Below are positions 17,767 to 26,561 of a DNA stretch of 52,680 bases, in pieces. The notes beneath the pieces are model-generated. The model worked only from the letters and a program-made list of their open reading frames with translations, had not been told where the DNA came from and did no database searches. The position numbers and the translations under genes were made by a program. The stretch is from Nocardioides sp. (GTDB lineage Bacteria; Actinomycetota; Actinomycetes; Propionibacteriales; Nocardioidaceae), in the NCBI RefSeq assembly GCF_024509035.1, contig NZ_JANINT010000053.1:1-52680 (forward strand), written 5' to 3'. Each line of letters opens with the position of its first letter. The stretch's first letter is position 1.

Positions 17767-18278
17767 GGGGTGCTCCAGTCGGCGACGGCGTACGCCGCGA
17801 GCACCAGGGCGCACGCCGGTCGGTCCTCGCAGCGGGCGGTCGTGACCGCGGTGTGCACCACGCCGAAGTCGATCCCGCGCGTCTCGGCCATGTCGGCGAG
17901 GCTGAGCTCGATCTGCCGCTCGACGTCGGTCACCGTCGGACCGGTGTGCTCGACGAACAGGCCGCCGACCTCGGGGTGGATCACCCAGCCGAGCCCGGCC
18001 GCGACCTCCTCGCCCGGGCGGTCGGCGTACGCGACGGACTCGACGCAGTAGAGGCGGTCGCCGTGGCCCCCGGGCAGGGGACCACCGCCGCGGGTGACCG
18101 TGCTGCGCGGTGGGATCACCGACGAGAGCGGGATCAGGTTGAAGTCGCCGACCCCCGCCTCGAGCAGTGCCCGGTCGAACGCGGACAGGCGGGTGCGTCC
18201 GGCGCCGGCCGCGGTGCGGACGGTGATGTCGAGCAGCCGGCCGTCGGGACGGATGTCCTGCAGGGTGGGGGCGGTCAC
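17763..18278 (-). CDS. pyruvoyl-dependent arginine decarboxylase family protein
   Basis: 171 residues. It matches the archaeal/chlamydial pyruvoyl-dependent arginine decarboxylases, which convert arginine to agmatine. The decisive region is LSAFDRALLEAGVGDFNLIP followed by LSSVIPP: the S52-S53 pair is where the proenzyme self-cleaves to form the pyruvoyl group. The conserved glutamate after GLFV is present (E110), as is the C-terminal ACALVLAAYAVADW helix. Start GTG 18278 lies in a GTGA overlap with the stop of the histidine kinase gene, and its own stop overlaps the GNAT-like start. A decarboxylase locked between a kinase and an acyltransferase is unusual. Substrate arginine is by homology; a related amino acid cannot be excluded. 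Confidence 0.88.
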   Translation of the reverse strand: MTAPTLQDIRPDGRLLDITVRTAAGAGRTRLSAFDRALLEAGVGDFNLIPLSSVIPPRSTVTRGGGPLPGGHGDRLYCVESVAYADRPGEEVAAGLGWVIHPEVGGLFVEHTGPTVTDVERQIELSLADMAETRGIDFGVVHTAVTTARCEDRPACALVLAAYAVADWSTP

Positions 18279-20851
18279 GCGTCGTTTCCTCCTGGTGATC
18301 GGGAATCCTCGAGGCGCTCGACCACGCGGTCCTCCAGGCCGGCCGCGTCGACCCGGCCCTTGGTCACGAAGTCGGTGCGGCCGAGCGTGAGCAGCGGACG
18401 GTCCACTGGCTCGACCTCGGCGGTGCTGTAGACGATCAGGTCGACGGTCGCGGTCTCGGGGTCGCGGCGCAGCTCGCTCACCACGGCCCGGGCGCGGCCG
18501 CTGGCATGGTCGAGGTCGAGGTCGAGCACGACGACCTGTGGCGTCCGCTCACGGGCGAGGCGTACGGCGTCACCGGCGTCCGGTGCGCGCAGCACGGAGA
18601 CCCCGTGGCTGGTGAGCAGCCCGTCGAGCTGCTCGGCGAGGCCGTCGTCGTCCGAGACGAGCAGCACCGCGCCCCACCCCGCAGCGAGCAGCGTGGGCGC
18701 GTGGTGGCTGTGGTGGCCAGGGCCGCGCCGGCCGGTCGAGGGCAGCGTGAACGCGACGGTGGTGCCGGTCCCGGGCGTGCTCTCGGCCCAGATCCGGCCG
18801 CCGTGGCCCTCCACGATCCCTCGGCTGATCGCCAGGCCGAGACCGGTGCCGCCCTTCTGGCGTGCGTCGGAGGAGTCGACCTGCTCGAAGCGCTGGAAGA
18901 TCGACTCGAGCTTGTCCGCGGGGATGCCGCGGCCGTGGTCGCGGACCCGGAAGGTGACCTGGCCGTCCTCGGCTGCGGCGCCGAGCACCACGCTCTGGCC
19001 CGCGCTGGAGAACTTGATCGCGTTGCTGAGCAGGTTGGTCAGCGTCTGCACGATCCGGTCGGCGTCGACGAGGACCCGGCCGGTGCTCGGCGCCACCTCG
19101 ATGCGTACGCCGCTGGACTGGGCCTGTCCGGCCATCTCGGTGGCCGCGCGGGTGAGGAGCTCCTCGGCGGCGACCGGCGCGATGTCCATCGACCGGGCGC
19201 CCGACTCGATGCGCTCCAGGTCGAGGATGTCATTGATGAGGCGGGTGAGCCGCTCGCTGCTCTCCAGTGCGATGCCGGTCATCGACCGGGCCCGCGGCGA
19301 GAGCTCGCCGAGCACGCCGCTGGCCAGCAGGTCCAGCGAGCCGCGGATCGAGGTGAGCGGTGTGCGCAGCTCGTGGCTGACGACCGAGATGAACTCGTTC
19401 TTCATCCGGTCCACCTCACGGCGCTCGGTGACGTCGCGGAAGACCACGACGGCGCCGCGCACGACCTGGCTGCCGGGAGTGCCGTCGAGCTGGGGGCTCG
19501 CGGTGATCTCGACGGGGAAGCTCGAGCCGTCGCACCGGATGTAGACGTCCTCCTCGGCGAAGGTGCTGATCCCGGAGGCGATGGCCTCGGCGATGTAGCA
19601 GCCCTGGTAGGGGTACGCAGGCCCGTCCTCGGCGGGCGCGTGGAAGACGTCGTGCGCCGAGCGACCGAGGAGGTCCTCCGCGGCGTACCCGAGCGCGTCG
19701 GCGGCCGACGGGTTCACGAAGGTGACCCGGCCCTCGTCGTCGACGCCGTAGATGCCGTCGCCCACCGACGTGAGCAGCACCTCGGTCTGGCGGGCCAACC
19801 GCTGCAGGTGGGCCGTCTGCTCGCTCACCCGGTGCTCCAGGCCACGGCGCAGGGCGTTGTTGTCGCGCGTGAGCACGATCTGGCGCGCGGCGGCCGCCAC
19901 GGCGACGACCAGCCACAGCGCCCCCATCGTGGGCGGCAGCGCCTCGTTGTCGCCGACGACCACCTGCACGCCCGCTGCGAGCATCAGCACGAAGTAGACC
20001 AACGCCGTATCGCGCGCGTCGACCGCGGCGCCCGACGCCGCGGGCACGTCCACCTCGGTGCTGGGGTACCAGGCGGCCAGCGCGAGCAGCGCGTACCCGA
20101 CGATCCAGCCCAGGTCGACCTGGGTGCCGAACTCGAAGTCGTCCTGGGCGACGAGCACGGCGAACCGCAGGTCGGCCACGGCGTAGGACAAGAACCCCAG
20201 CGCGAGGAGTGCCAGCGCCCGGCGGTCCGACCCGCTGGCGCGCAGCAGGAGCAGGAGGCCGACGACGACCAGCACCACGTCGAGCACGGGGATGAGCAGC
20301 GTCGAGACCTGGGAGGCGAGGCCGCCACGGCTCTGCTCGAGCAGCTCGTCGTAGACCAGCGTCGAGGCGATGATCAGGACCGCGCCCCCGACCACCAGGC
20401 CGTCCATGCTGATCACGACGAGGTCGACACCGCGCCGCCGGACGCTCGGGAACCCGAGCACGCCGGCGATGCACAGGCCGAGCGCCACGACGATCGTCAG
20501 GTCGCTGAACGCGCTCGGCGAGGTGACGGGGTCGGAGCCGATCGCGGTGGCCCACACGTTGCCGGCGATCGCGACGACCGCGCCCGCCATGATCAGCAGC
20601 CAGGACCGGCGCCGGCGGCCGACCGTGCGGCGCGACCGCACCCAGCACGAGACCGCCAGGAACAGCCCGCTGGTGATCAGGCCGAGGCCGCTCGCGAGCT
20701 GCCGCACGTCCTGGTCCACCCAGGCGGGCTCGAGCAGCGCCGCGAAGACCACGATCGCCGCGACCGTGCACGACAGCACCACGAGGTACTGGCGTCGCTG
20801 CCGCGCGAGCGAGTCAGGCATGAGGAGGTCCCGAGAGATGGTGGAGGCCAC
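18275..20851 (-). CDS. hybrid sensor histidine kinase, ten-helix membrane input + PAS
   Basis: 858 residues. About ten hydrophobic helices (20-330) form an integral-membrane input domain I cannot name. A PAS domain (about 350-465, LLTSVGDGIYGVDDEGRVTF to VVFRDVTERRE) follows. Then come the phospho-acceptor SHELRTPLTSIRG, the ATPase domain with NLLSNAIKFS, DHGRGIP and GTGLGLAIS, and a C-terminal receiver-like domain (about 715-845) with LDLDLDHASG and VTKG. Start GTG 20851 has no clear ribosome site; ATG 20821 is an alternative. The stop overlaps the arginine decarboxylase start by 4 bases. It begins 33 bases after the NarL-type regulator, so it may belong to the same long transcript. Partner: probably the receiver encoded three genes downstream. 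Confidence 0.9.
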   Translation of the reverse strand: MASTISRDLLMPDSLARQRRQYLVVLSCTVAAIVVFAALLEPAWVDQDVRQLASGLGLITSGLFLAVSCWVRSRRTVGRRRRSWLLIMAGAVVAIAGNVWATAIGSDPVTSPSAFSDLTIVVALGLCIAGVLGFPSVRRRGVDLVVISMDGLVVGGAVLIIASTLVYDELLEQSRGGLASQVSTLLIPVLDVVLVVVGLLLLLRASGSDRRALALLALGFLSYAVADLRFAVLVAQDDFEFGTQVDLGWIVGYALLALAAWYPSTEVDVPAASGAAVDARDTALVYFVLMLAAGVQVVVGDNEALPPTMGALWLVVAVAAAARQIVLTRDNNALRRGLEHRVSEQTAHLQRLARQTEVLLTSVGDGIYGVDDEGRVTFVNPSAADALGYAAEDLLGRSAHDVFHAPAEDGPAYPYQGCYIAEAIASGISTFAEEDVYIRCDGSSFPVEITASPQLDGTPGSQVVRGAVVVFRDVTERREVDRMKNEFISVVSHELRTPLTSIRGSLDLLASGVLGELSPRARSMTGIALESSERLTRLINDILDLERIESGARSMDIAPVAAEELLTRAATEMAGQAQSSGVRIEVAPSTGRVLVDADRIVQTLTNLLSNAIKFSSAGQSVVLGAAAEDGQVTFRVRDHGRGIPADKLESIFQRFEQVDSSDARQKGGTGLGLAISRGIVEGHGGRIWAESTPGTGTTVAFTLPSTGRRGPGHHSHHAPTLLAAGWGAVLLVSDDDGLAEQLDGLLTSHGVSVLRAPDAGDAVRLARERTPQVVVLDLDLDHASGRARAVVSELRRDPETATVDLIVYSTAEVEPVDRPLLTLGRTDFVTKGRVDAAGLEDRVVERLEDSRSPGGNDA

Positions 20852-20884: not shown

Positions 20885-21592
20885 TCAGCCCCCCGAAACC
20901 GGTCCGCCGGGCTCGGACGGACCCACCAGACCGTGCTCGTGGGCGAAGACGACGATCTGGACCCGGTCGCGCAGCCCCAGCTTGCGCAGGATCGCACCGA
21001 CGTGGGTCTTGACCGTGGACTCGCTCGCGAAGACCAGACCCGCGATCTCGGTGTTCGAGAGGCCGCGGGCGACCGCGCTGAACACCTCGCGCTCCTTGTC
21101 GGTGAGCGTGAGGTACGCCGCCGGCGCGGGCGCCCGGCTCTGGAACTGACCGTCGAGGAGCGTGGCGAGGTCGTCGGGGGCGAGCACGGCGTTGCCGGCG
21201 TGCACCGTGCGGATGGCGTCGGCCAGCATCACCGGCGTGGTGCCCTTGAGCAGGAACCCGCTGGCGCCGTACCGGATCGCGGTGGCCGCCCGGTCGTCGA
21301 GGTTGAACGTCGTGAGCACCACCACCCGCACCGGCCGCTCGCGGCGCGCCGCACGGTCGGGCAGGAAGATCTGGCGGGTGGCCTCGACGCCGTCCATCTC
21401 CGGCATCCGGATGTCCATGAGCACGACGTCGGGCTCGAGCTCGTCGACGAGCGCGACGGCCTCGATCCCGTCACCGGCCGCGCCGACGACCTCCATGCCG
21501 TCCTGGGCGTCGACGATCACCCGGACGCCCTCGCGGAACAGCTCCTGGTCGTCGACCAGGAGCACCCGGATGGCGGGGTCGGGCGCGCTCAC
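20885..21592 (-). CDS. NarL/LuxR-type response regulator (van-like cluster)
   Basis: 235 residues. Receiver domain (8-130): LLVDDQELFREG, phospho-acceptor VVLMDIRMPEMDG, VVVLTTF and LLKGTTP lysine. C-terminal LuxR helix-turn-helix (about 160-220): LTDKEREVFSAVARGLSNTEIAGLVFASESTVKTHVGAILRKL in pattern, quoted here as LSNTEIA and STVKTHV. The start is GTG 21592 in a GTGA overlap with the kinase gene. This is the regulator of the dipeptidase-racemase-ligase operon by position. Known van operons use OmpR-type VanR, so the NarL class is notable. Confidence 0.93.
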   Translation of the reverse strand: MSAPDPAIRVLLVDDQELFREGVRVIVDAQDGMEVVGAAGDGIEAVALVDELEPDVVLMDIRMPEMDGVEATRQIFLPDRAARRERPVRVVVLTTFNLDDRAATAIRYGASGFLLKGTTPVMLADAIRTVHAGNAVLAPDDLATLLDGQFQSRAPAPAAYLTLTDKEREVFSAVARGLSNTEIAGLVFASESTVKTHVGAILRKLGLRDRVQIVVFAHEHGLVGPSEPGGPVSGG

Positions 21593-22806
21593 CGGCTGCG
21601 CACCGGCAGCCAGGCGGTGGCGGTGAAGGTGGGCGGGTCGTCGCGCCGGCGTACGTCGAGGCGACCGCCGACCGACTCCAGCCGGCGCCGCATGCCGTCG
21701 AGGCCCTGACCGCCGCCCGTGGGGGTCGCCACCAGCGGCTGGGTCTCCTCGGTCGCGGGCTCGACCACGTTCTGCACCTCGATCCTCAGCTCTCCCTCCC
21801 AGTGTCTCTCGACGCGCACCGGAGCGCCGCGCCGACCGTGCTTGAGGGCGTTGGTCAGCATCTCCTGGAGCACCCGGAAGGCCACCGTCGCCAGCTCGGG
21901 CGGCAGCGGCTGGGGAGTGCCGAACTCGGTCGAGGCCACCTCGTTGCCCGCGGCCCGCACCCCGGCGACCAGGCTGTCGAGGTCGGTGGTGCCCGCGCGC
22001 GGTCCGGCCTCGGCGCCGGTCGAGGCGAGCACCTGGCGGATGTCCTCGAGCGAGCTGCGGGCGGTCGTCGCGATGTTGTCCATGGTCTTCTTCAGCGCCT
22101 CGGTGTCGGCGTCCTTGAGATATTGCGCGGACTCGGACTGGACGAGGATCACCGCGAGCGAGTGCCCGACGACGTCGTGCACGTCGCGAGCCAGCTTGGC
22201 CTGCTCCTCGCGCAGGCGGGCGATCTCCTCGGCCTGGTCACGCTGCTCCTCGGCGACGACCTGCGAGACGCGCGACTCCCGGGCCCGGTCGGAGAACCTC
22301 AGCGCGAGACCGGCGAGCCACGGCACCCCGAGCACGGACATCCCCACGACCGCGGCGGTGACCTGCCACCGGTCGCTCAGCTGGGAGGTCTGCTCGACCA
22401 GCGTCCGGAAGCCGGCGGTGTCGAGCGCGCTGTAGAAGACGCCCGAGTCGACCCACCGGACAGCGATGAAGGCTGCTGCCGGGATGGAGAGGGCGCTCGC
22501 CCAGACGGTCGCGGTGCTGCCCCAGCGCGAGGTGCCGAAGGCGACCGCGGCGAGCGCGATCTCGAACAGGAAGAGGTCGGTGCCGGTCGAGATCTGCAGC
22601 GCGCAGATGACCCAGGTGAGGGCGAGGGCGGCGGCGGGCAGGTGGCGGCTGAGCGTGACGGCGCTGGAGATCGCGACCGCGAGCAGGATCATCGGCGTGC
22701 GCGTGTCGGGCCAGTACACCGCGCGGGTGGCGACCTCGAAGAGGCCGACGAGCAGCACGGCCAGGCCGAACCCGATGTCGGGCGCCCAGCGCACGAGGAT
22801 CTTCAC
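21589..22806 (-). CDS. NarL-partner sensor histidine kinase (HisKA_3)
   Basis: 405 residues. Five to six membrane helices occupy 8-170 with only short external loops, so it probably senses within or at the membrane. A coiled segment (VVAEEQRDQAEEIARLREEQ) leads into the HisKA_3 phospho-acceptor LARDVHDVVGHSLAVILV. The ATPase domain includes MLTNALKHGRRG and GQGLDGMRRR. GTG 22806 overlaps the acyltransferase stop and its stop overlaps the regulator start, giving a tightly coupled pair. Signal unknown; a cell-wall precursor or envelope-acting compound is suggested by the cluster only. Confidence 0.92.
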   Translation of the reverse strand: MKILVRWAPDIGFGLAVLLVGLFEVATRAVYWPDTRTPMILLAVAISSAVTLSRHLPAAALALTWVICALQISTGTDLFLFEIALAAVAFGTSRWGSTATVWASALSIPAAAFIAVRWVDSGVFYSALDTAGFRTLVEQTSQLSDRWQVTAAVVGMSVLGVPWLAGLALRFSDRARESRVSQVVAEEQRDQAEEIARLREEQAKLARDVHDVVGHSLAVILVQSESAQYLKDADTEALKKTMDNIATTARSSLEDIRQVLASTGAEAGPRAGTTDLDSLVAGVRAAGNEVASTEFGTPQPLPPELATVAFRVLQEMLTNALKHGRRGAPVRVERHWEGELRIEVQNVVEPATEETQPLVATPTGGGQGLDGMRRRLESVGGRLDVRRRDDPPTFTATAWLPVRSR

Positions 22807-23765
22807 GCTGCCACCCGCACCCGATCCCGGCGCTGGTGCAGGGGCGCCTCGACGTACCGCCACGACACAGCGGCCGCGACCAGCGTGAGCACCACCGCCG
22901 GCAGGGCGGGCAGCCACAGCGAGAGGGGGTAGTTCCAGAGGTACGCCGCGTAGGAGACGGTGCCCAGCCAGACCCCGGCGCGCAGCGGTCCGGTGATGGT
23001 GCGCCAGTGCCGCCAGGCGAGGACCAGCACCCCGGTGAGCGCGGCGATGGCGGGTCCTCCTGCCAGGTAGGTGAGCACGTGACCCCGCAAGGGAACCACA
23101 CTCATGAGGCCGATCGCCGCCAGGGCGATGGGCACCGCCCAGGTCGGGACGGCGAGCCGGTCGCCGTACAGCCGGACGGCCGCGCCGACGACGAAGCAGA
23201 GCGCCCAGCTCGTGGGCAGCGCGTAGGCGAGGTCGGGGTCCTCGGCCAGCCACCAGGTCGTCGCGACGCAGGCCAGAGCGGTCGTCGTGGCCGCCACCAG
23301 CAGCGCGCGGCGGCGGCCCAGCAGGAGGAGGACGGCGGGCCAGACGAGGTAGAACTGCTCCTCGGTCGCCAGGGTCCACAGGTGGAACGTCGCGTCGCTC
23401 GCGTGCCCGAACGGCAGGTTGCCGGTCCACGTCAGCGCCCACAGCACGGTCCAGCCGAGCCGGTCGCGGTCGCCGAGCGGGTCGAGCGCGAGGGTCACCA
23501 GCGACACCCCGGCGACCAGCACCAGCAGGGGCGGCACGAGCCGTCGCGCCCGGCGTGCGTAGAAGCGACGCAGCGGCGGTCGCTCCTCGAGCAGGCCGGT
23601 GATCAGGTAGCCCGACAGCGCGAAGAACATCACCACGCCCACCACGCCCGCCCCCGGGAACAGGTCCGGCAGGGCGTGGCGCAGCATCACCAGCGCGATC
23701 GCCAGGCCGCGGAGCAGGTCGAGGCCGTCGATCCTCCTCGTCTCGGGCCGCGGAGCGTCGCTCAC
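22803..23765 (-). CDS. acyltransferase-3 family membrane protein (VanT membrane-domain-like)
   Basis: 320 residues, nine to ten membrane helices. Family marks: GLDLLRGLAIALVMLRHAL at the N-terminus with the conserved histidine, MFFALSGYLITGLL, FYARRARRLVPPLL and TLATEEQFYLVWPAVLLLL. The ending KWRYVE-like SWRYVEAPL is typical. Such proteins O-acylate envelope sugars or other cell-surface molecules. The N-terminal membrane half of serine racemase VanT belongs to this same family, where it has been linked to L-serine uptake. Located between ligase and kinase with GTGA overlaps on both sides, it could supply the racemase. An ordinary O-acetyltransferase is the alternative. Confidence 0.88.
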   Translation of the reverse strand: MSDAPRPETRRIDGLDLLRGLAIALVMLRHALPDLFPGAGVVGVVMFFALSGYLITGLLEERPPLRRFYARRARRLVPPLLVLVAGVSLVTLALDPLGDRDRLGWTVLWALTWTGNLPFGHASDATFHLWTLATEEQFYLVWPAVLLLLGRRRALLVAATTTALACVATTWWLAEDPDLAYALPTSWALCFVVGAAVRLYGDRLAVPTWAVPIALAAIGLMSVVPLRGHVLTYLAGGPAIAALTGVLVLAWRHWRTITGPLRAGVWLGTVSYAAYLWNYPLSLWLPALPAVVLTLVAAAVSWRYVEAPLHQRRDRVRVAA

Positions 23766-24700
23766 CGGAGGGCGCCGCGGACCAGCTCGTCGAGCAGGTC
23801 CGCGTAGGGGAGCCCCTGGGCCGCGAACATCCGCGGGACCTGGGAGTGCTCGGTCATACCGGGCATCGTGTTCACCTCGTTGAGCACCGGCCCCGCCTCG
23901 GTGAGGAAGAAGTCGACGCGGGCGACCCCGGCGCAGCCGAGGGCGTCGTACGTCGCGACCGCGGCGTCGGTCAGGGCCTTGGCGTCCACCTCCTCGAGCG
24001 CCGCCGGCACCCGGAAGTCGGCGTGGCCGCCGTACTTCGCCTCGAAGTCGAAGAGGCCGTCGACGACGATCTCCAGGGCGGGGGAGACCTGGAGCGTCCC
24101 GTCGGCGCGCCGGAGCACGGCGACGTCGATCTCGCGCCCGGCCACGACGTCCTCGACGAGCACCCGGTCGTCGACGGCCAGCGCCGCCTCGAGGGCGGGC
24201 CCGAGGTCGGCGGGGGCGCGGACCAGGCTGACGCCCTGGCTGGAGCCGGCGGCGACCGGCTTGACCACGACCGGATGCGTCCAGACCTCCTGGGCGGCGG
24301 TGGTCCGGGTGACCAGGCGTCCGGGTGCGGTGGCGATGCCGATCGCCTCCGCGACCAGCTTCGTCGCCCACTTGTCCATCGCGAGCGCCCCCGCGCGGAC
24401 CCCCGAGCCGACGTACGGGAGGCCGGCGAGCTCGCACAACGCGGCGAGCGTGCCGTCCTCCCCGCGGGGCCCGTGCAGGACCGGGAACACCACGTCGCAG
24501 GTGGAGAGCACCGAGGTGGCCCCCGACAGGCCGAGCGGGTGCGCCCCGCTGTCGCGCCACATGCCGTCGAGGTCGATCGTGAGCGGCACCACCTCGTACC
24601 GGCGGGGGTCGAGGGCCGCTGCGACCGAGGCGGCCGAGGCCAGCGACACCTCGTGCTCGCAGTTCTGGCCGCCGCCGACGACCGCGACACGGGTCCTCAC
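23762..24700 (-). CDS. ddl: D-alanine-D-alanine ligase family (D-Ala-D-X ligase)
   Basis: 312 residues, ATP-grasp. It joins D-Ala to a second D-residue using ATP. Motifs: GGGQNCEHEVSLASA (subsite 1 Glu), LHGPRGEDGTLAALCEL, VVVKPVAAGSSQGVSL, the omega loop FDFEAKYGGHADF, and NEVNTMPGMTEHSQ. The EAKY tyrosine is the residue kept in D-Ala-D-Ala and D-Ala-D-Ser ligases; D-Ala-D-lactate ligases of the VanA type have a different omega loop. So D-Ala-D-lactate is unlikely; D-Ala or D-Ser in the second site is open. Start GTG 24700 overlaps alr; stop overlaps the acyltransferase. The clustering with a VanX homologue suggests an accessory rather than housekeeping copy. Confidence 0.9.
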   Translation of the reverse strand: MRTRVAVVGGGQNCEHEVSLASAASVAAALDPRRYEVVPLTIDLDGMWRDSGAHPLGLSGATSVLSTCDVVFPVLHGPRGEDGTLAALCELAGLPYVGSGVRAGALAMDKWATKLVAEAIGIATAPGRLVTRTTAAQEVWTHPVVVKPVAAGSSQGVSLVRAPADLGPALEAALAVDDRVLVEDVVAGREIDVAVLRRADGTLQVSPALEIVVDGLFDFEAKYGGHADFRVPAALEEVDAKALTDAAVATYDALGCAGVARVDFFLTEAGPVLNEVNTMPGMTEHSQVPRMFAAQGLPYADLLDELVRGALR

Positions 24701-25842
24701 GACAGGCTCCGCAGGTGGGCCGGACGGCGCACGGTGCGCGGCACGCGGCCGCCGATGCCGGTGACGATCTCGTGCTCGAGGGTGTCCGCCCAGGCGGCCC
24801 ACTCGGCCACCGTCGGCTCGCCGGCGTCGCCGGGCCCGAACACGGTCACGGGCTCGCCGAGGTCCACGGGCCGCTCGCCCAGGTCGACCACGACCTGGTC
24901 CATCGAGATCCGCCCGACCAGCGGACGACGCCGCCCGCGGACCAGCACCTCGGCGCGCCCGGAGGCCAGCCGCGGGAGCCCGTCGGCGTACCCCAGCGGC
25001 ACGAGGCCGAGGTGGGTGGGCGCGGGGGTGCGGTAGCCGTGCGCGTAGCCGACCGGGGTGCCGGCGCGGACCCGGCGCACCTGCACGATCGGCGCGGTCA
25101 GGGTCATCGCCGCGCGCAGGGGGGTGGTGAGCGAGGGGTCGATGCCGACGAGGCCCGCGCCGACCCGGCTCATCGTGTGGTGGCTGCGCGGGTCGGTGAG
25201 GGTCGCCGAGGTCGCGGCGAGGTGTCGGTGGGCGGGGCGCAGGCCGGCTGCCCGCGCCGTCTCGAGGGCCCAGGCGAACCGGGTGCGGGCCAGGGCGTTG
25301 CAGTCGTCGGCCGGATCGTCGGCGCAACCGAGGTGGCCCATGACGCCGACGACCTCGATCTCGCCGCGCTGCTCGGCCCGCCGGGCCGAGCGGCACAGCT
25401 GGGCCCACGTCGACGGGTCCGCCCCGTCGCGGGCCATGCCGGCGTCGACGTGGAGATGCACGCGCGTCCGGGGTGCCGATGCCACCGCGGTGAGGTGGGC
25501 GAGGCTGGGCACGGCGACCTCGACGTCCTCCCGGGCGGCGCGGGCGTAGTCGGCGTCGACGGCGTTGAGCCAGCTGAGCACCGGCGCGGTGAGGCCGGCG
25601 GCGCGCAGGGCGAAGGCCTCCTCGAGGCTGGTGACGCCGAGCCGGGTCGCGCCGTTCGTGAGCGCCGTGCGGGCGACGTCGACGGCACCGTGCCCGAAGC
25701 CGTCGGCCTTGACGACCGCCATCAGCTCGCCGGTGGCCCGCTCGGCGAGCAGCCGGGTGTTCTGGGCGATCGCCGCGAGCTCGACCTCGAGCCGAGGACC
25801 CGAGCCGACGTGCGGCCGGGCGGCGGTGGCGAGGCCGGTCAC
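24697..25842 (-). CDS. alr: alanine racemase family protein (possible serine racemase)
   Basis: 381 residues, PLP-dependent fold III. PLP lysine in AVVKADGFGHGAV near 46; substrate contacts VDAGMARDG, the PLP-ring arginine in MSRVGAGLVG, catalytic tyrosine region GTPVGYAHGYRT, GYADGLPRL and GRISMDQVVVDLG. The position matching Tyr354 of the Geobacillus enzyme (ISYRVPR) is glycine here (IGGRVPR). A smaller residue there favours serine in mutant studies, but many actinobacterial alanine racemases also lack the tyrosine. Start GTG 25842 in a GTGA overlap with the dipeptidase. Housekeeping alr in actinobacteria usually sits beside tsaE, not here. Confidence 0.9.
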   Translation of the reverse strand: MTGLATAARPHVGSGPRLEVELAAIAQNTRLLAERATGELMAVVKADGFGHGAVDVARTALTNGATRLGVTSLEEAFALRAAGLTAPVLSWLNAVDADYARAAREDVEVAVPSLAHLTAVASAPRTRVHLHVDAGMARDGADPSTWAQLCRSARRAEQRGEIEVVGVMGHLGCADDPADDCNALARTRFAWALETARAAGLRPAHRHLAATSATLTDPRSHHTMSRVGAGLVGIDPSLTTPLRAAMTLTAPIVQVRRVRAGTPVGYAHGYRTPAPTHLGLVPLGYADGLPRLASGRAEVLVRGRRRPLVGRISMDQVVVDLGERPVDLGEPVTVFGPGDAGEPTVAEWAAWADTLEHEIVTGIGGRVPRTVRRPAHLRSLS

Positions 25843-26462
25843 GCCGCCACCTCCGCGGCGACCGGGCCGTAGAGGGCGTGCCCGCTGCCGGTCATCAGTG
25901 CCCAGTAGCGGTCGCCGAAGCTCCAATGCCACCACTCGGTCGGGTAGTTCACCAGGCCCTGGGCGCCGAGCACCGCGGCCAGCAGGTCCCGGTGGGCGCG
26001 CGCGTCCGCGCCGATGCCGTCGGCCGCGAAGTAGCAGCGCCCGTCGCTCTGCTCGGGCGTCGCGTCGATCTCGGTGCCGAGGTCGAGCTCGTCGCCGCAC
26101 ACGTCGACGAGCGTCAGGTCGACCGCGGCCCCCGCGACGTGCGGTGCGACCTCCACCGGGCTCACGAAGCGGCTCGTCAGCACCTCCAGCTCCGCCGCGT
26201 CCGCGTGCGGGTGATGGGCGCGCACCTCGGCGGCGTACGACGCGACGATCGCGCGCTGGACGTCCAGCGGCCGGTAGCCCTCGATCACCCGCAGCCGGAT
26301 GCCCGCGGGGAGCGTGGCGTCGGCGGCCTCGAGGCGCTCGGCGAGGCTCGCGCGCACGAGCGCGCCGAGGGGGGAGAGGTCTCGGTCGAGGCGGACCAGC
26401 GGCTCGCCGGTCTCCGCCACCGGCACGGCGCGGACCCGCGGGTCCGACAGCAGGATCGTCAT
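25839..26462 (-). CDS. vanX: D-alanyl-D-alanine dipeptidase, VanX family (M15D)
   Basis: 207 residues, no signal peptide, so cytoplasmic like VanX. All catalytic residues of VanX can be placed: R64 in VIEGYRP, zinc ligands H108 (VAPHVAGAAVD) and D115, base E176 and zinc ligand H179 in NYPTEWWHWSFGD. VanX removes D-Ala-D-Ala so that a replacement dipeptide is used in peptidoglycan precursors and glycopeptides no longer bind. ATG 26462 chosen (GAGGG 2-3 bases upstream); GTG 26486 is an alternative. First gene of the cluster; its stop overlaps the racemase start by 4 bases. A role in D-amino acid recycling from wall turnover is the alternative. Confidence 0.88.
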   Translation of the reverse strand: MTILLSDPRVRAVPVAETGEPLVRLDRDLSPLGALVRASLAERLEAADATLPAGIRLRVIEGYRPLDVQRAIVASYAAEVRAHHPHADAAELEVLTSRFVSPVEVAPHVAGAAVDLTLVDVCGDELDLGTEIDATPEQSDGRCYFAADGIGADARAHRDLLAAVLGAQGLVNYPTEWWHWSFGDRYWALMTGSGHALYGPVAAEVAA

Positions 26463-26529
26463 GCCCTCGACGCTAGAAGTGCGCAAGGTCCTCCGACCTC
26501 CACCTCAGGTGCCGCCTCCCTGACCGCGA

Positions 26530-26561
26530 GTACCGATCGCCCGGGACCACGGGCGCGGTAC
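26530..26561. promoter_or_regulatory. imperfect inverted repeat in divergent promoter of van-like cluster
   Basis: GTACC (26530) and CGCCCG (26538) are mirrored by CGGGCG (26550) and GGTAC (26557), an 11-bp split inverted repeat around a 6-base centre. It sits in the 134-bp gap between the dipeptidase gene and the divergent secreted-protein gene, where promoters for both must lie. It could be the binding site of the cluster's NarL-type regulator. The arms are offset by two bases, so it may also be a chance GC-rich repeat. Confidence 0.35.

Follow-up and report, generated by a model that had tools for sequence, protein, structure and literature searches.

The vanG, vanC, vanE, vanL, and vanN systems combine a racemase, a ligase, a D,D-peptidase, and a two-component pair, with an acyltransferase-3 (AT3) part contained within their VanT. 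A comparable set of genes is found on the minus strand at positions 20885-26462 of a 52,680-nucleotide stretch of DNA (the window), which is the entire contig C53 of a 4.75-Mb, 453-contig Nocardioides sp. genome. The Nocardioides operon differs from these systems in having a VanX instead of a VanXY, a separate AT3 protein or none, and a NarL-type rather than an OmpR-type pair. Where the VanG sequence was compared, the operon ligase was found to fall in a separate clade, with Gln and His in the operon enzymes at positions of an Arg in VanG and an Asn in VanT.

The vanHAX operons likewise contain a ligase and VanX, but with a VanH-like dehydrogenase in place of the racemase, a VanA-clade ligase that carries a pocket Arg, and an OmpR-type pair where one was seen. 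The VraTSR system of Staphylococcus aureus is of the NarL class. According to PMC3893269, it is similar to the present operon in providing vancomycin-responsive regulation that affects van gene expression, but it is a stress system of the chromosome that works on a vanA operon acquired separately and is not encoded inside a van operon. Two further arrangements are described in PMC8698665. Genes for vanRSY are located beside Ddl and alanine racemase genes in Allonocardiopsis, Murinocardiopsis, and Geodermatophilales, for which an alternative remodelling was suggested. These loci share with the present operon a racemase-ligase pair near van genes, but contain VanRS and VanY instead of VanX, AT3, a NarL-type pair, and operator-marked vanY and vanZ genes elsewhere. 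The pdx operon of Micromonosporales resembles ours in having a Ddl-like ligase, a VanX-like peptidase, and a two-component pair without VanH; it differs by a PALP serine/threonine dehydratase-like enzyme in place of the racemase and by a VanRS-like pair. A search of the main text of PMC8698665 for LuxR, NarL, and Nocardioides gave no match, and neither a NarL-type van regulon nor DUF6518 was seen to be described in the open literature searched.

The original prediction of six minus-strand genes, with their order, their families, and their GTGA overlaps, was borne out by the open reading frames and by Pfam. Adjacent genes are joined by five 4-base GTGA overlaps, and the products are as follows.

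25839..26462, minus strand: VanX-like D,D-dipeptidase (M15), 207 aa, five catalytic/zinc residues present (Pfam Peptidase_M15, residue check)
24697..25842, minus strand: alanine-racemase-fold amino-acid racemase, 381 aa, His357 replacing Tyr354 of alanine racemase (Alr) (Pfam Ala_racemase N and C, alignment)
23762..24700, minus strand: putative D-Ala-D-X ligase (ATP-grasp), 312 aa, Gln287 adjoining Ser286 of the second-residue subsite (Pfam Dala_Dala_lig N and C, alignment, tree)
22803..23765, minus strand: AT3 membrane protein, 320 aa, R-x10-H motif starting at R19, probably accessory (Pfam Acyl_transf_3)
21589..22806, minus strand: HisKA_3 sensor histidine kinase, 405 aa (Pfam HisKA_3 and HATPase)
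20885..21592, minus strand: NarL-type response regulator, 235 aa (Pfam Response_reg and GerE)

We propose that this operon is probably part of an inducible glycopeptide-type resistance regulon that makes precursors ending in D-Ala-D-X. D-Ser is the likeliest X, at about even odds.

Orthologues of the operon ligase were identified at 67-82% identity in 37 other genomes from a sample of 98 of the Nocardioides group that includes the present one, giving 38 carriers. The 60 non-carriers have only other Ddl-type matches, mostly at about 45-49% identity. Across an even sample of the phylum, 2 of 396 genomes pass E 1e-70 for the ligase, one of them being the present genome, and the ligase module is thus frequent in the genus but rare overall. 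Named genomes, scanned for the best 80 of 294 relatives, provided 80 loci at 63-82% ligase identity from Nocardioides, Pimelobacter, Jiangella, Kineosporia, Actinopolymorpha, Cellulomonas, Hamadaea, Motilibacter, Lentzea, Saccharothrix, Actinopolyspora, Nakamurella, and others. With duplicates removed, 94 distinct loci were compared, using gene calls from a simple GC-frame caller that misplaced some starts. All six genes are present in 34 loci; 29 are without AT3, 13 without vanX and AT3, 8 have AT3 but no pair, 5 have vanX, racemase, and ligase only, and the other 5 include some that are cut by contig ends. The genomic surroundings of the operon change repeatedly among the loci.

The operon is preceded by a conserved tandem palindrome with the approximate consensus TACYTsAGGACAGC, a 4-base gap, and CGGCACCTsAGGTGGAGG. 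In the window its elements are:

26519..26532, minus strand: operator box 1, TACTCGCGGTCAGG (phylogenetic footprint)
26497..26514, minus strand: operator box 2, CGGCACCTGAGGTGGAGG, with the palindromic core CACCTGAGGTG (footprint)
26470..26475, minus strand: -10-like TAGCGT, 7 bases before the ATG, of a putative leaderless-type start (upstream comparison)

The exact hexamer TAGCGT is found near the start in 42 of the 78 loci with the pair, and its location in the window, 7 bases before the ATG, suggests that the transcript is of the leaderless type. An operator score of at least 14 bits with a weight matrix was obtained for 71 of 77 loci with the pair. Three of the six misses (L126, L132, and L150) were found to possess the operator, the gene start having been misplaced; for L098 and L119 the sequence starts at a contig edge, and the pair of L159 is an unrelated one. 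On this count every testable locus with the NarL-type pair has the operator (74 of 74), and no locus without the pair has it (0 of 14; Fisher p 1.6e-16, relatedness ignored). The count leaves out L057 and L105, whose sequence begins inside the operon, and also L081, the one locus of 15 without a visible pair that reached the score, whose contig ends inside ddl. Loci with the pair served to train the matrix, which therefore favours them, but the exact-pattern counts given below are independent of this training. Only 1 of 920 random segments reached 14 bits, and it was itself a second site before a vanZ gene (L058). We infer that the NarL-type pair controls the operon through this conserved operator, and the NarL-class control originally predicted gains support from the distribution of the operator. 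Eight loci from Lentzea, Saccharothrix, Actinopolyspora, and Actinophytocola (L139, L141, L143, L149, L154, L156, L157, and L161) have vanX, racemase, ligase, and AT3 with neither the pair nor the operator.

The operator is also found at other genes. The exact 18-mer CGGYACCTSAGGYSGASG gave 21 matches in the 98 genus genomes versus 5 for the reversed control. Fifteen of the matches are at the operon, 4 are elsewhere in carriers, and 2 are in non-carriers, which for carriers alone amounts to 19 versus 0 for the control. The four extra-operon matches in carriers precede vanZ and vanY in the present genome, vanZ in G079, and DUF6518 in G068; those in non-carriers are in G019, inside a called PALP-family open reading frame, and in G093. 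When the two-box pattern was allowed 0-1 mismatches, nine non-operon sites were found in the 38 carriers, eight of which precede vanY, vanZ, or DUF6518. These are vanZ (C179), vanY (C314), and vanZ (C450) in the present genome, DUF6518 in G066, G038, G041, and G068, and vanZ in G068; the ninth site is due to chance (G026:C6). The non-carriers contain one such site, inside a PBP-type gene (G094). For most of the marked genes the start codon is 61-63 bases after the start of the pattern, as at the operon, and for the C450-type vanZ genes it is further off, at 100-119 bases. Altogether 2 of 4 vanZ, 1 of 2 vanY, and 1 of 2 DUF6518 genes of the present genome are operator-marked, all on other contigs and the last by a two-mismatch site. 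The two-mismatch search was at chance in number (59 non-operon matches in the 38 carriers versus 86 for the reversed pattern), and for this reason only sites with 0-1 mismatches were used as evidence. Of 50 two-mismatch non-operon sites, 21 were inspected (14 picked by eye and 7 covered by the supplied loci), and 9 of these precede vanY, vanZ, or DUF6518. The candidate sites L214, L217, L225-L228, and L230 were rejected as chance sites.

Matches to DUF6518 are found in 16 of 38 carriers versus 3 of 60 other genomes (Fisher p 9e-6). A subgroup that scores low, though above the cut-off, and that was split off after the scores were seen, occurs in 10 carriers and 0 non-carriers; 9 of the 10 are preceded by an operator-like site, two of these being weak (17 and 27 bits). 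Near the high-scoring DUF6518 genes (L275 = G000:C31, L273, L274, and L272) is a weaker tandem site of the GGTACC type (16-27 bits), oppositely oriented, which could belong to another regulator.

Elsewhere in the same genome, ddl-like genes are found on C408 (of housekeeping type) and on C56 (the third of the genome), and an alr that is not part of the operon is on C93. The operon ligase and racemase are thus extra copies, as had been predicted, and the possibility that they represent the sole alr and ddl of the genome is excluded. At L045, L055, and L089 the operon is one or two genes away from the housekeeping ddl, next to a gpsA-like gene (by eye).

Gln directly follows the conserved Ser of the second-residue subsite in 94 of 94 operon ligases (Gln287); the aligned housekeeping Ddl have Met there, and VanG and five VanA-type ligases from Nocardioides have Arg. 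This position presumably corresponds to Leu282 of E. coli DdlB. The omega-loop Tyr of the EAKY motif, initially taken as a sign of D-Ser, is also kept in 94 of 94, but the housekeeping Ddl of this and related genomes has the same residue, so that EAKY is no pointer to D-Ser and this part of the prediction is rejected. In most loci the omega loop is shorter by two to three residues, and no conserved His of the VanA type was found at this loop in the alignment of the operon ligases. A maximum-likelihood tree was constructed from 33 ligases, among which VanG is the only D-Ser ligase. The 21 operon ligases and the ligase of L180 were grouped together and separated with support 100/100 from the housekeeping Ddl (5) and from the VanA-type ligases plus VanG (6); the support is 87/88 when a very long third Ddl-like branch is included. 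The operon ligase is therefore not with the housekeeping Ddl, as was anticipated, but it is not with VanG either and forms a clade of its own. L180 is from G354, which belongs to another family of the class, and its racemase-ligase pair adjoins a VanY-family gene and an OmpR/HisKA pair, an arrangement similar to that of the vanRS-vanY loci; it has the same His and Gln. A reading in which X is D-Lac was discarded, since the operon contains no dehydrogenase gene, the omega loop has no conserved His, and the ligase is outside the VanA clade.

Racemase positions are given in Geobacillus numbering, assigned by alignment. The Van sequences in the alignments were VanG and VanA-type ligases, and the VanT residue was taken from PMC3485190, where Tyr354 of Alr is described as a specificity determinant that is Asn in VanT of E. 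gallinarum. The Tyr354 position is occupied by His in 91 of 92 operon racemases and by Asn in 1 of 92 (L117), while the housekeeping Alr of the present genome has Tyr. L117 is the only racemase with the VanT residue and represents a natural His/Asn exchange. At the Lys129 position 88 of 92 have His or Gln, Tyr43 is changed to Phe in 86 of 92, and the Asn-Ser of the phosphate loop is changed to Ala-Thr in about 90 of 92. The catalytic residues Lys39, Tyr265, Arg219, and Arg136 are retained.

The VanX of the operon (67 bits to PF01427) has R64 as the catalytic Arg, H108, D115, and H179 as zinc ligands, and E176 as the catalytic Glu, at the positions where the original prediction had placed them. 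A near-full-length VanX at 64% identity or above was found in 32 of the 98 genus genomes, including the present one, and every one is an operon carrier. A piece of only 33 residues, 67% like the operon VanX, was seen in the non-carrier G082 (L179, G082:C12:12699-12797) and is perhaps a remnant. Seven carriers (G010, G041, G043, G050, G057, G068, and G078; L165-L171) have a further VanX-like copy at 48-57%, which in G057 is the sole one, the operon there being without vanX. In five of the seven (L167-L171) the extra gene directly follows a trehalose-6-phosphate synthase-like gene (otsA, by eye). Nine genus genomes combine a weak VanX match (29-35%) with a ligase match of 42-47%, which we read as vanHAX; five of these (L172-L176), in which VanH was identified by eye, were inspected, and their VanX shares 26-30% identity with that of the operon. 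G004, one of the nine, is an operon carrier as well. No significant mutual exclusion of vanHAX and the operon was found in the genus (1 of 38 carriers versus 8 of 60 others, Fisher p 0.15).

A number of results weigh against the proposal of a D-Ala-D-X resistance regulon. The curated NCBIfam models do not place the enzymes among the Van families: the ligase passes those for D-Ala-D-Ala ligase (NF002528, 310.2 vs 262; TIGR01205, 289.1 vs 245.65; NF002378, 253 vs 243), the racemase passes that for alanine racemase (TIGR00492, 257.5 vs a cut-off of 168) and is far under those for VanT (VanT-G, 184.8 vs 460; VanT-L, 72.5 vs 750), and the operon VanX scores 42.2 bits against an equivalog cut-off of 320. 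No Van ligase (D-Ser models included), VanT, or VanX model shown reaches its cut-off, and the Van ligase and VanT models are far below theirs. Automatic annotation would consequently name the enzymes plain Alr and Ddl, and such loci could be overlooked. The ligase Gln differs from the VanG Arg, as does the racemase His from the VanT Asn. The vanX-like family is also found beside unrelated genes (L165-L171), and 13 of 94 loci retain the pair, racemase, and ligase without vanX, although L098 and L119 begin at a contig edge. The NarL-type pair is not essential, as it is missing from 14 loci with upstream sequence. Classical VanX hydrolyses D-Ala-D-Ser too, and such a VanX would be wasteful if X is D-Ser. 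In 13 genomes reached through named loci, two of them Nocardioides, 30 of 45 sites were inspected. Most are chance sites or belong to the operon promoter; a DUF6518-like gene follows one of them in N. marmoriginsengisoli (L242, by eye), and no gene was called within 200 bases of an exact match in Kineosporia (L232). The vanY, vanZ, and DUF6518 sites were seen in some Nocardioides genomes only.

The alternative that survives best retains the same architecture but has some other D-amino acid in place of D-Ser as X, such as a larger or polar one, supplied by the altered-pocket racemase. We consider this rather unlikely, though less so than the other alternatives. The Gln of the ligase and the His of the racemase leave room for it: the racemase pocket departs from that of Alr (His for Tyr354, mostly His/Gln for Lys129, and mostly Phe for Tyr43) and from the Asn of VanT, and the Gln is found in neither the aligned Ddl nor VanG nor the VanA-type ligases. 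The Asn in the natural racemase L117 counts against it and, to our knowledge, D-Ser is the only D-amino acid that serves as X in van systems. Of the remodelling originally predicted (D-Ala-D-Ser or another D-X), the D-X part is now the likeliest reading, and the assignment of D-Ser is still conjectural given a Gln that is not the VanG Arg and a His that is not the VanT Asn.

The exact form of that prediction, in which an AT3 gene and a racemase gene are the halves of a split VanT, as in vanL, and the D-Ala-D-Ser ligase is recognised by EAKY, is unlikely. The gene content fits where AT3 is present, as in the 34 loci with all six genes. However, AT3 was found in 44 of 94 loci; a few of the 50 in which it was not found are truncated at contig ends. 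Of 63 loci with vanX, racemase, ligase, and pair, 29 lack it, as do the 13 pair loci without vanX, so that AT3 is unlikely to be an obligatory half of VanT. The AT3 protein matched no NCBIfam model at E 0.001, the racemase falls well short of VanT, and EAKY is ordinary for Ddl; the split-VanT claim is weakened by these results.

Somewhat less likely again is a general envelope-stress operon of the LiaSR/VraSR kind that would tune D-Ala-D-Ala turnover and would not confer drug resistance. The HisKA_3/NarL pair weakly resembles LiaS and NarX by NCBIfam HMM, and VraTSR responds to vancomycin and beta-lactams (PMC3893269). On the other hand, eight of the nine operator sites with 0-1 mismatches mark van-type and DUF6518 genes and no broad envelope set, and the altered specificity residues are invariant. 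Changes at the Mycobacterium equivalent of Tyr354 occur in cycloserine-resistant strains, and a role related to D-cycloserine would accommodate an extra racemase and ligase as duplicated target enzymes with altered active sites that curated models call Alr and Ddl, but it is the least probable alternative, since VanX from the same operon would destroy the D-Ala-D-Ala product, the operator marks vanY and vanZ genes, and the invariant change in the ligase adjoins the second-residue pocket.

Under the proposed D-Ala-D-X regulon, the kinase would sense either the drug bound to the D-Ala-D-Ala end of lipid II or the resulting damage. The NarL-type regulator would then bind the tandem palindrome at the -35 region of the leaderless-type promoter and switch on vanX, racemase, ligase, AT3 where present, kinase, and regulator, together with vanY, vanZ, and the DUF6518 membrane gene in trans. 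From their families, VanX is expected to remove cytoplasmic D-Ala-D-Ala and VanY to trim pentapeptide ends. Families and pocket residues together suggest that the product of the racemase is a D-amino acid different from D-Ala, most likely D-Ser, which the ligase would join to D-Ala. The resulting precursors ending in D-Ala-D-X should bind glycopeptides poorly, and AT3 and DUF6518 may act as accessory envelope proteins.

Directly downstream of the operon, at 18275-20851 of the window, is a gene for a large membrane histidine kinase of 858 aa with PAS-like and receiver-like parts (by eye), and a gene of comparable size (848 aa) occupies this position in L092. A divergent MurF-like gene is found beside the operon at L107:4746-6101, L126:4814-6601, L155:4485-5804, L071:4951-6270, and L074:5593-6930, with Pfam checked for L107 and L126. 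Such a neighbour could serve D-Ala-D-X as a dedicated MurF, but a dedicated MurF was rejected as a general part of the operon, because the gene adjoins only a few loci (L071, L074/L142, L107, L126, and L155). MurF-like genes are also near housekeeping ddl and vanHAX (L079, L080, L173, and L175; by sequence similarity or eye).

By the sequence tests made here, the operon would work like a van system, and its ligase belongs to neither the VanG nor the VanA family. We tentatively suggest, at somewhat less than even confidence, that it represents an undescribed van class in which a NarL-type pair runs a genome-wide regulon (vanX-racemase-ligase-AT3, vanY, two vanZ, and DUF6518) through a tandem palindrome at leaderless-type promoters. 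The enzymes of this class would form a third ligase-racemase lineage beside the D-Lac and the VanG-type D-Ser enzymes, X may be new to peptidoglycan, and DUF6518 would be a new resistance-associated membrane family. If this is correct, a common environmental genus carries glycopeptide-type resistance that surveys based on VanRS/VanHAX queries seem to have missed. In PMC8698665, 16 of 593 Propionibacteriales genomes were reported to have van-like genes, compared with the module ligase in 38 of 98 genomes of the genus in our different genome set. The mechanism of vanZ is called unknown in PMC3893269. The regulon would tie vanY, vanZ, and the uncharacterised DUF6518 to one signal through a defined operator that is named here and is directly testable, and the third lineage would provide a further setting in which to study the change of specificity in D-Ala-D-Ala ligases and alanine racemases.

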